Below, piece after piece: positions 8,756-33,423 of a stretch of DNA of 34,944 bases. The position numbers and the translations under genes are program-made. This DNA comes from Maribacter sp. (lineage in GTDB: Bacteria; Bacteroidota; Bacteroidia; Flavobacteriales; Flavobacteriaceae), in assembly GCA_022865355.1 (NCBI GenBank), contig JALHST010000175.1:1-34944 (forward strand). The letters run 5' to 3'. The notes under the pieces are model-generated. The model was not told where the DNA came from. It searched no databases and saw only the letters and a list, made by a program, of their open reading frames with translations. Position 1 is the first letter of the stretch; every line of letters starts with the position of its first letter.

Positions 8756-10663
8756 TTACTTTACTTCTTCGAAATCGACGTCCTCAACATTGTCGCTCTC
8801 CTTGGTGTCGGCGCCGGCGGTATCTTCACCGTTTGAAGTCGGACCGCCTTGCTGTGAGTCGGCCTGTGCCTTGTACATTTCCTCGGAAGCTACCTTCCAA
8901 GCTTCATTGACCCTCCCCAATGCGGAAGTAATCATCGCAAGGTCCTTACTTTCGTGCCCTTTCTTCAATTCAACCAAGGCATCCTCGATCGGCTTTTTCT
9001 TTTCTGCCGATAACTTTTCACCGAATTCCTTCAATTGTTTTTCTGTCTGGAATATCATACTATCTGCCTCGTTTAGCTTATCGGCAGTTTCCTTCGCTTT
9101 TTTATCACTCTCGGCATTCGCTTCTGCTTCGGCCTTCATCTTCTTGATTTCTTCTTCGGTAAGGCCTGAAGAAGCTTCAATACGAATATCCTGGGTTTTG
9201 TTGCTAGCCTTGTCGGTTGCAGAAACCTTAATGATTCCGTTGGCATCAATATCAAAGGTCACCTCAATCTGTGGAACCCCCCGCTGAGCAGGTGGAATTC
9301 CGTCTAGATGAAATCGACCGATCGTCTTATTATCTGCGGCCATGGGTCGTTCACCTTGCAGTACATGGATCTCTACCGACGGTTGATTATCTGCAGCAGT
9401 GGAAAATACTTGCGATTTTTTGGTTGGAATCGTGGTATTCGCATCGATGAGCTTGGTCATAACGCCCCCCATGGTTTCAATACCAAGGGAAAGCGGTGTT
9501 ACATCCAATAACAACACATCTTTTACGTCACCTGTCAATACGCCTCCTTGAATTGCGGCACCAACGGCTACTACCTCATCGGGATTCACTCCCTTAGACG
9601 GTTTTTTGCCGAAAAACTTCTCGACTGCCTCCTGAACCGCAGGAATACGGGTTGATCCCCCGACCAAGATAATCTCGTCGATGTCACTTTTCGATAGGCC
9701 CGCTGCCTTCAATGCAGTTTGACAAGGTTGGATGGTACGTTTTACCAAGTCCTCGATCAATTGCTCAAATTTAGCCCTGGTCAAGGTACGCACAAGGTGT
9801 TTTGGGCCCGTTGCAGTAGCAGTAACATAGGGTAAATTGATTTCGGTCTGTGCTGAAGATGATAATTCAATTTTGGCCTTTTCGGCGGCTTCACGCAAAC
9901 GTTGCAAGGCCATGGCATCTTTTCGAAGGTCGATGCCTTCTTCCTTATTGAATTCTTCGGCCAACCAGTCGATTATTTTTTGATCCACATCATCACCACC
10001 CAAATGGGTATCCCCATCGGTTGACAATACCTCAAAGACGCCATCACCTAGTTCTAATACCGAAACGTCATGTGTTCCACCTCCAAAGTCAAAAACCACA
10101 ACCTTTTGATCCTTGTGCTTTTTATCGAGGCCGTAGGCCAAAGAAGCAGCTGTCGGCTCATTGATAATACGTTCAACCGTTAGTCCCGCTATTTCGCCGG
10201 CTTCCTTGGTAGCTTGTCTTTGTGCGTCGTTAAAATAGGCAGGTACCGTAATTACCGCCCTGGTAACGGTCTGACCCAAATAATCCTCGGCCGTCTTTTT
10301 CATTTTCTGAAGGATCATTGCCGATAGCTCTTGTGGTGAATACAAACGCCCATCAATATCAACCCTCGGGGTGTCGTTGTCGCCCTTAACAACTTTATAA
10401 GGAACCCTCTCCGCCTCTTTTTTAGATTCGGAATATTTATTCCCCATAAACCTCTTGATCGAATACACGGTTTTATGGGGATTTGTAACGGCTTGTCTTT
10501 TGGCAGGATCACCTACCTTGATTTCGCCTCCTTCAACAAAAGCTATTACAGATGGGGTCGTTCTTTTTCCCTCCGCGTTTGGGATTACCACCGGTTCATT
10601 GCCTTCCATTACAGAAACGCAGGAATTGGTCGTTCCCAAATCTATACCTATTATTTTACTCAT
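8756..10663 (-). CDS. dnaK: molecular chaperone DnaK (Hsp70)
   Basis: A 635-residue Hsp70. The N-terminal ATPase domain has [18 protein letters not shown], the phosphate-2 segment [21 protein letters not shown] and [13 protein letters not shown]. The substrate-binding domain begins near [19 protein letters not shown], and the helical lid and acidic tail end with DVDFEEVK. Length and all signatures are normal. No dnaJ or grpE is adjacent. The 274-base upstream gap shared with divergent sdaA holds a sigma-54-like element and TGTCA repeats. ATG start at 10661-10663. Confidence 0.98.
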
Positions 10664-10712: not shown

Positions 10713-10753
10713 GTCAAACAATATGCCAAGAGACAGAAACTGACAGGATGTCA
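10713..10753 (-). promoter_or_regulatory. dnaK upstream element: sigma-54-like -24/-12 plus TGTCA/TGACA boxes
   Basis: Reading the minus strand towards dnaK: TGACA-TCC-TGTCA (a perfect inverted repeat, 10741-10753), then TGTCT, then TGGCAT (10723-10728), five bases and TTGAC (10713-10717). The last pair fits the sigma-54 layout TGGCAC-N5-TTGCA in spacing and in the GG, but the -12 GC reads GA. The predicted start would leave roughly a 40-base leader before the dnaK ATG. A Bacteroidota sigma-A reading (TATTGTTTG) would need a three-base gap in TAnnTTTG. Confidence 0.4.
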
Positions 10754-15794: not shown

Positions 15795-16612
15795 ATGCCA
15801 ACTCCGAGAAAAGAATACAAACGAATCACCGTGAAGTCACTTGTCGATATGAAGAAAAACGGTGAAAAAATTTCGATGCTCACCGCATATGATTATTCAA
15901 TGGCCAAAATAGTCGATGCGGCCCAGATAGATGTAATCCTGGTAGGAGATTCTGCCAGTAATGTGATGGCGGGCCACGAGACTACCCTCCCCATCACCTT
16001 GGATCAGATGATATACCACGCCGCCTCCGTCATTAGGGCGGTAGAGCGGGCTCTTGTGGTGGTTGATATTCCTTTTGGAAGTTATCAGAGTGATCCAAAG
16101 GAAGCCTTGCGATCTGCGATTCGTATTATGAAAGAGAGTGGTGCCCATGCCGTAAAGGTCGAAGGTGGGGTCGAAATAAAGGAATCGGTGAAACGTATTC
16201 TCAATGCAGGAATTCCGGTAATGGGCACCTAGGACTTACCCCACAATCAATATATAAATTCGGCACCTATTCAGTTCGGGCAAAAGAGGATCAAGAAGCG
16301 GACAAACTCATGGAAGATGCCAAATTACTAGAGCATTTGGGATGTTTTGCCATTGTACTTGAAAAAATACCGGCGAGTCTCACCAAAAAAGTCACTGAAA
16401 GTATTTCCATCCCCACGATTGGGATTGGAGCGGGCAAATATGCTGACGGTCAGGTTCTGGTAATTCATGATCTTTTGGGGATGACCCACGAATTCAATCC
16501 GCGATTTTTGCGACGTTACATGAATCTTTATGAAGAAATGGGCCAAGCTATTTCCAACTATGTAAAAGACGTAAAAAAGATGGATTTTCCAAGTGATGAC
16601 GAGCAATATTAG
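15795..16612 (+). pseudogene. panB: panB (ketopantoate hydroxymethyltransferase) with a one-base deletion
   Basis: PanB makes ketopantoate from 2-oxoisovalerate and methylene-tetrahydrofolate for pantothenate/CoA synthesis. The first frame (15795-16232) carries the metal ligands in [10 protein letters not shown] and [10 protein letters not shown] and the catalytic Glu region AVKVEGG, then ends GIPVMGT-stop. The expected [14 protein letters not shown] is recovered if one C is restored after 16226: the next frame then reads [22 protein letters not shown] and runs on without a stop into [13 protein letters not shown] and [21 protein letters not shown] to the TAG at 16612. The repaired protein would be about 272 residues, normal length. 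Everything else looks conserved, so the lesion is either very recent or a sequence error. Confidence 0.9.
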
Positions 16613-33168: not shown

Positions 33169-33294
33169 AGTAATTACAAAATAACAAATAAAAGATCAAG
33201 GGACGAAGGACATCCCAATTGCACCGGCAGGAGAAGCCTTGTTTCGGCGGTTCCTCGCACAAACAAAATACCTTGACTAATGGGCACAAAAAAA

Positions 33295-33388
33295 GGCAAG
33301 CTACCTACATCGCACCGCTACGACCATATACCCTTGCTGCGTTCCCACCCTGGGGGATTCTACAGGAGCTGGTCGTGTAGGACTTGCC
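33295..33388 (-). ncRNA. ffs: signal recognition particle RNA (small bacterial type)
   Basis: Read on the minus strand, about 94 bases fold into one long hairpin: the ends GGCAAG and CTTGCC pair, then partly matching arms (CCTACACGACC with GGTCGTAGCGGTG, GTAGG). The universal SRP apical part GGGTGGGAACGCAGCAAGGGTA is present, as in other Bacteroidota. It forms the ribonucleoprotein with Ffh that targets nascent membrane proteins. A run of seven T follows at the 3' end (33288-33294), so the RNA's own terminal helix doubles as the terminator. The 5' end is set by the promoter at 33394-33423. Confidence 0.93.
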
Positions 33389-33393
33389 AATTG

Positions 33394-33423
33394 CAAATAT
33401 ACAACCTTTTAATTCTTTTGCAA
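33394..33423 (-). promoter_or_regulatory. SRP RNA promoter (Bacteroidota sigma-A type)
   Basis: The minus strand has TTG (33421-33423), 19 bases, and TATATTTG (33394-33401), an exact TTG-N19-TAnnTTTG promoter. Five bases (CAATT) follow before the first G of the RNA's terminal stem at 33388. This is the best-defined promoter in the window and calibrates the others. Confidence 0.8.

Follow-up and report, generated by a model that had tools for sequence, protein, structure and literature searches.

A candidate enhancer and sigma-54-type promoter upstream of dnaK and other chaperone genes in Bacteroidota

We propose that a 41-bp element upstream of dnaK in a Maribacter sp. (positions 10713-10753 of the window, that is, of the 34,944-nucleotide stretch of contig JALHST010000175.1 that we analysed) is a compact enhancer joined to a promoter for RpoN (sigma-54). 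We further propose that it is activated by an enhancer-binding protein, here called EBP1, and that dnaK, grpE(-dnaJ), groES-groEL and htpG form one chaperone regulon under this control. We put the probability of this reading at about 0.77. It builds on the box and the promoter themselves, on their conservation, on the fixed or phased spacing between them, on their bias towards chaperone and protease genes, and on the presence of rpoN and EBP1 in all 60 genomes compared.

Bacteroidota are a main phylum of gut, soil and sea, and at the loci studied here we did not find the RpoH and CIRCE elements that usually serve chaperone control. The interest of the finding is that it proposes both a DNA site and a single protein through which this large phylum would control its chaperones. 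With a phased enhancer and one candidate activator, the way in which these bacteria switch on their chaperones can be tested directly.

The element upstream of dnaK

On the dnaK strand, the whole element reads GTGACATCCTGTCAGTTTCTGTCTCTTGGCATATTGTTTGACATC. An earlier note on this DNA had described a perfect TGACA-TCC-TGTCA inverted repeat and a TGGCAT-N5-TTGAC sequence with the spacing of a sigma-54 promoter, and the letters bear out both (Table 1). In its general form, TGNCA-N3-TGNCA, the box is unchanged by reverse complementation, and this holds for any middle letters. If the promoter is read as sigma-54, then the -24 G is at 10726, the -13 G at 10715 and the -12 A at 10714. The center of the box would lie at about -45 relative to the predicted start, and the predicted leader of dnaK would be 39 nt long.

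Table 1. Coordinates of the features of the window
Feature	Position	Strand	Remarks
dnaK, 635 aa	8756..10663	-	gene starts at 10663
Enhancer box TGACA-TCC-TGTCA, TGACATCCTGTCA on the dnaK strand	10741..10753	-	candidate; general form TGNCA-N3-TGNCA
Sigma-54-type promoter TGGCAT-ATTGT-TTGAC, TGGCATATTGTTTGAC	10713..10728	-	sequence pattern and conservation
TGTCT, half-site-like word between box and -24	10731..10735	-	sequence
Predicted transcription start (+1)	10702	-	predicted by counting from -12
panB-like frame, first part	15795..16232	+
panB-like frame, second part	16310..16612	+
Small SRP RNA	33290..33396	-	Rfam RF04183, 108.6 bits

In the fixed 16-bp register, the promoter of this genome keeps the TGGCA at -24 and a G at -13. 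The C at -12 of the sigma-54 consensus is absent (the dinucleotide is GA), so we term it a variant that would work like a sigma-54 promoter. Taken alone, in a single sequence, the sigma-54-like pattern is modest evidence: allowing up to one mismatch, the -24/-12 pattern has 13 matches in the window versus 6.1 expected, and 1 of 100 shuffles reached 13.

We then compared the regions upstream of dnaK (up to 400 bp per genome) across genomes. dnaK was matched in 60 of 60 genomes, including our own (G000, a 3.97 Mb draft in 319 contigs); 37 are from the same family, and one match is a fragment at a contig end. The search expression TGG[CT]A[CT]-N5-[ACT]TG found a -24/-12 element before dnaK in 56 of the 60 (30/30 in the first set). 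At the four loci without a match, one stretch is partly N and three are one base off the expression; one of these three, which reads GGGCATGATGATTG, is from a 0.345 Mb genome (G051). Within the family, 33 of 37 dnaK loci have a box that matches in 9 or 10 of its 10 letters and lies 12-13 bp before TGGCA; in G002, G016, G025 and G033 the best box is further upstream. Because the element is conserved across genomes, we consider it to be more than chance. The earlier note had made its reading depend on conservation of the motif in related dnaK upstream regions, and that conservation is found.

The -13/-12 dinucleotide of the 56 dnaK promoters is GA in 44, GT in 7 and GC in 5. The earlier note was correct that the -12 element is GA instead of GC, but this is no argument against sigma-54, as GA is the common form before dnaK. 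Counting from -12 in the same way, the median predicted leader in the 56 genomes is 38 nt. The further TGTCT that had been pointed out is present between the repeat and the -24 element. It is poorly conserved, with a comparable word just before -24 in 9 of 37 dnaK promoters from the family, so we rejected it as a conserved third half-site; it is probably incidental to the element.

The CIRCE consensus is TTAGCACTC-N9-GAGTGCTAA, and the RpoH consensus is CTTGA-N12-17-CCCCAT. With these consensus sequences, the best match to CIRCE at 60 dnaK, 30 groES and 29 htpG loci still had 5 mismatches out of 18, and an RpoH box was found in 0 of 60 dnaK upstream regions, in keeping with what had been reported for the window. 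We also tried HAIR and CtsR consensus elements and found none that was convincing: CtsR-like words with up to 3 mismatches were present in 6 of 60 regions, which we judged to be chance.

Elsewhere in the window, two frames look like two parts of one gene, presumably panB (ketopantoate hydroxymethyltransferase), which either a frameshift or a mistake in the assembly has broken in two. The window also contains a small SRP RNA (Table 1).

The unit at other chaperone genes and its helical phasing

We found groES, grpE and htpG in 31, 31 and 29 of 31 genomes and could read 30, 30 and 29 loci. The test was for a TGGYA with G at -13 that is preceded, at 11-13 bp, by a box departing from TGWCA-N3-TGWCA in no more than one letter. 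This test was passed by 15 of 30 groES, 23 of 29 grpE and 22 of 29 htpG promoters. (Our own grpE locus was incomplete in that set; its promoter, read separately, carries the box and the -24/-12 unit.) The earlier note had pointed to other heat-shock genes as the place to look for the motif, and it is present at all three. The groES boxes are weaker, with half of the promoters passing, and we count this against our explanation. In grpE promoters, -13/-12 is GC in 15 of 23.

The half-sites vary by gene: TGACA/TGTCA before dnaK, TGACA/TGACA before grpE (18), TGTCA/TGTCA before htpG (10), and TGAAA (6) or TAACA (3) paired with TGTCA before groES. Because grpE and htpG use their own combinations, the exact TGACA-N3-TGTCA fails as a genome-wide marker of the regulon, and we rejected it as such. 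The exact 13-mer occurs once in the window and at two places in the 3.97 Mb draft, upstream of dnaK and inside an open reading frame on another contig.

As a control, we took the 130 bp before -24 from 124 promoters (56 dnaK, 29 groES, 26 grpE and 13 htpG). There were 111 boxes in 100 of the 124 chaperone promoters, 78 of them at 11-13 bp, versus 4 boxes in the reversed stretches and a mean of 2.9 (largest, 7) in 50 Markov resamples. We also scanned ten whole genomes from the family for the unit, setting the gap at 12 bp and allowing one mismatch. This gave 30 places, versus 1 for the backwards pattern, and 29 of the 30 precede dnaK (7), grpE (10), groES-groEL (6), htpG (4) or Hsp20 (2), as judged from coordinates and tblastn; the remaining one is unassigned. 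In our own draft genome, the scan gave exactly three sites, which are grpE, dnaK and groES; the gap at its htpG is 13 bp.

Finally, we scanned a public genome collection blindly, that is, for the DNA of the box and the -24/-12 element with gaps of 14-44 bp, without naming any gene. The scan gave at least 117 loci, and the figures that follow are among the matches listed. Within 900 bases downstream, 99 of the 117 have a chaperone or protease gene by tblastn: DnaK 68, GroES/GroEL 16, Hsp20 8, Lon 3, and GrpE, ClpB, ClpC and HtpG 1 each. (Ten downstream proteins were checked against Pfam; one is an exchanger protein and was left out of the count.) By their record names, 109 of the 117 belong to Bacteroidota (Bacteroidales, Prevotella, Alistipes, Cytophagales, Flavobacteriales and others).

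The gaps at the 117 listed loci cluster near 23, 33-34 and 44 bp: 57 are at 21-25 bp, 32 at 31-36, 19 at 41-44 and 7 at 14-15, with 1 each at 17 and 27. For a period of 10.5 bp, R = 0.77 at these 117 loci and 0.80 at the 99 chaperone or protease loci. With one promoter per similarity cluster of the listed loci (n = 70), R = 0.78 (p ~5e-19); the 37 listed loci that were unexamined when the period was first noted, 34 of which precede chaperone genes, give R = 0.75 (p ~9e-10); and gene-anchored boxes of relatives outside the family, at 16 bp or more and found with spacing ignored in the search, give R = 0.74 (n = 29, p ~1e-7), where all p-values assume independent loci, which related species are not, and clustering is a partial remedy. 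In relatives outside the family, the boxes stand further upstream; across genomes, dnaK boxes lie at 12, 22-23, 33, 42-44, 53, 62-65 and 74-76 bp. The blind-scan gaps continue the phase of the 12-bp position of our family, which is helical phasing. With phased positions that begin at -45, these promoters are also a natural test of how near to its polymerase an AAA+ activator can sit.

The other 18 of the 117 listed loci have no recognised chaperone gene, and we count them against our explanation. Among 15 of these, five stop no more than 310 bases from the promoter, and one of the five starts like DnaK. Those without a gene whose records are titled Chloroflexi, Pseudomonas or Salinisphaeraceae are probably chance matches.

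Some of the listed loci lie in unexpected places. The box and sigma-54 element stand before Lon genes in metagenome-assembled genomes titled Euryarchaeota and Neomarinimicrobiota, and the same group (L276, L280 and L347) takes in one titled Chlorobiaceae, with the unit before a recognised chaperone gene. Either these bins carry wrong labels or the unit is spread more widely. At L304:1598-1645, the gene behind the unit encodes a glutaredoxin and is closely followed by a GroES-like frame; we counted this locus under GroES/GroEL.

A candidate activator

The sigma-54 reading of the earlier note called for rpoN, and the gene is there in our own genome. The draft shows only its last 84 residues, including ARRTVAKYREQ, because the contig ends there. 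The DNA-binding domain of RpoN is present in 60 of 60 genomes. Our genome also contains four strong matches to the sigma-54 activator domain PF00158, one of which is EBP1. Its gene stands in the order miaB - EBP1 - lptE - TPR gene - secG - groES - groEL.

EBP1 is 426 amino acids long, with the PF00158 AAA+ domain (223 bits), an AAA lid and a Fis-type helix-turn-helix (HTH_8, residues 388-424). The GAFTGA loop reads GSFTGA. A domain search found no receiver or other sensor domain. EBP1 does not reach the cut-off of any of the 25 NCBIfam models listed (PrdR, 328 of 795 bits; PspF, 274 of 444). Each of the 60 genomes has it, with identities of 57-100%; in seven the alignment stops in the linker. 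It lies within 5 kb of groES in 25 of 31. We tried 45 orthologs, and 43 were extracted and aligned. The helix-turn-helix sequence LGISERTLYRK is invariant. The linker of 121 residues between the lid and the helix-turn-helix has 1 invariant residue, and a better conserved segment lies near residues 280-310. The longer the linker, the nearer the dnaK box tends to be (Spearman -0.57, n = 35); the trend tracks the family tree, and we leave it out of the evidence.

Because our own genome has three further PF00158 proteins, elimination in favor of EBP1 works only through other genomes. We took a census of PF00158 in 16 genomes (fifteen of up to 2.2 Mb and one of 4.0 Mb). EBP1 is the only strong PF00158 protein in 7 of the 16 (G035, G043, G046, G047, G051, G056 and G058), with over 200 bits versus at most 38 for the next match. 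Four of the seven (G035, which is about 91% complete, G046, G047 and G051) have a single enhancer-binding protein and yet show the box upstream of dnaK or groES, along with a -24/-12 or -24 element. Among the 117 listed blind-scan loci, of which 16 hold groES or groEL, we found no ortholog of EBP1, only one partial match at 37%, in a locus other than these 16; we count this against our explanation.

The genome of 0.345 Mb, G051, is, to judge from its size, probably that of an endosymbiont. It keeps rpoN and a single enhancer-binding protein, and it keeps the order miaB - EBP1 - groES - groEL with a secG-like frame. Its groES has a perfect TGACATTATGTCA (L407:4439-4451) 23 bp before TGGCATATTTTTGG. 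Its dnaK has a -24-like element, and the best box is 120 bp upstream and out of phase, which we count against our explanation. In the parts available to us, a study of a comparable endosymbiont called the retention of RpoN unusual and tied it tentatively to nitrogen (PMC3971599). Chaperone transcription would be a simpler reason than nitrogen for RpoN to be retained in endosymbionts, and the idea of EBP1 control, if true, would explain its retention in such tiny genomes.

A second AAA+ protein is encoded near grpE. In our own genome (contig C88, L199:3109-4272, minus strand) it has a receiver and the AAA+ sigma-54 activator domain, with the loop GAFTSA, and a domain search found no helix-turn-helix or other DNA-binding domain. 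Its gene is in one run with grpE and dnaJ. Among the matches listed, 18 of the 25 genomes tallied have an AAA+ gene of this size class no more than 8 kb from grpE; the domains of these neighbors were tested in our own genome only, and six other genomes were left out of the tally. The seven genomes with a single enhancer-binding protein lack the receiver-AAA+ protein, so the unit does not depend on it. The protein may nevertheless feed a signal into the unit.

The earlier note had suggested that the boxes could bind a regulator or an enhancer-binding protein. We think that this is right: they probably bind an enhancer-binding protein, and EBP1 is the likely one. We predict that RNA polymerase with sigma-54 binds TGGCAT-N5-TTGAC and waits as a closed complex. 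With its Fis-type helix-turn-helix, EBP1 would bind TGACA-N3-TGTCA on the side of the DNA helix that the polymerase also occupies, and it would use ATP to remodel the closed complex and open the promoter. With the box so close to the polymerase, a long loop would be unnecessary, and the long linker of EBP1 may let the AAA+ ring reach the polymerase. Heat or misfolded protein presumably activates EBP1. Because there is no receiver or sensor domain before the AAA+ module, our guess is that a partner keeps EBP1 inactive, perhaps a chaperone such as DnaK or GroEL; the chaperones themselves may set its activity through the unusual linker.

A broader form of the proposal stands, in our view, at about even odds. 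One sensor-less AAA+ activator beside groES would be the master heat-shock regulator of Bacteroidota, acting from TGNCA-N3-TGNCA at -45 or whole turns further up without the classical long-range looping, and would be the reason for RpoN in insect endosymbionts of about 0.3 Mb.

Alternative explanations and known systems

The promoter could be a sigma-54 promoter whose box is bound by another protein, whether another NtrC-type activator, an unrelated activator or a repressor. We consider this unlikely. Our genome does offer three further strong PF00158 proteins, two of which have an HTH_8 of their own, and there are the AAA+ genes near grpE. A box that abuts the expected position of the polymerase would also suit a repressor, but a repressor site would need no phased positions up to 76 bp upstream. 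As for another activator of the NtrC type, EBP1 is the sole strong candidate in 7 of the 16 genomes of the census, and the four named above still show the box with a promoter element.

It is much less probable that a housekeeping or ECF sigma factor reads dnaK, with TGGCAT-N5-TTGAC either mimicking a sigma-54 promoter or belonging to an operator. The dnaK promoter lacks the -12 C, and TTGAC resembles a -35 hexamer. However, none of the 56 dnaK promoters has the housekeeping pattern TTG-N17-23-TAnnTTTG in the stretch from -24 to the start codon, and sigma-70-like sites nearby are close to the level of shuffled sequence (2 versus 1.1 expected). The 16-bp register with G at -13 is also kept in 56 of 60 genomes, and, according to the parts of the study available to us, a mapped dnaK start in Flavobacterium psychrophilum was assigned to a sigma-54 motif (PMC9723704). 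That a chance inverted repeat happens to stand beside a chance -24/-12 look-alike we regard as practically excluded: the pattern is not rare in one sequence alone, but conservation, specificity, the controls and the phasing refute it.

That sigma-54 controls chaperone genes in flavobacteria is already known from the literature. The available parts of the F. psychrophilum study describe transcription starts with sigma-54 motifs, mapped upstream of groES-EL, lon, dnaK, grpE-dnaJ, htpG and clpB, and do not decide which of three PF00158 proteins is the activator (PMC9723704). In those parts we found neither an upstream box nor an assigned activator; in the main text, "enhancer" is used once and "palindrom" never. 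In a 2025 study, again as far as available, the computed sigma-54 targets of Flavobacteriia and other classes of Bacteroidota are enriched in chaperone genes, and no activator is tied to these genes; the main text has no UAS, "upstream activat", TGTCA or "palindrom" (PMC12316311). The available text of PMC12596196 has nothing on chaperones or sigma-54. In open papers, we found no report of the box, its phasing, the wide link to chaperone genes or the assignment of EBP1.

The SM4 promoters of F. psychrophilum are among the closest known counterparts, with the same chaperone genes as here and with -24/-12 motifs. The available parts of that study also list a probable sigma-54-dependent regulator, THC0290_0733, with lptE (0732) and with a locus number near that of groES (0729) (PMC9723704).

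The proposed control can also be set beside two classical systems and one family of activators. Control by RpoH and by HrcA/CIRCE has the same target genes (dnaK, groESL, grpE and htpG). Their elements were not found at the loci tested here, where activation would instead go through sigma-54. EBP1 shares the AAA+ sigma-54 activator domain, the AAA lid and the Fis-type helix-turn-helix with enhancer-binding proteins of the NtrC/PspF type, and like PspF, EBP1 has no N-terminal sensor. Sigma-54 enhancers usually lie about 80-150 bp upstream; the box at -45 is nearer, which we count against our explanation. EBP1 differs from the NtrC/PspF type in its poorly conserved linker of about 120 residues between the lid and the helix-turn-helix, and in its proposed sites, which are at -45 or whole helical turns above.
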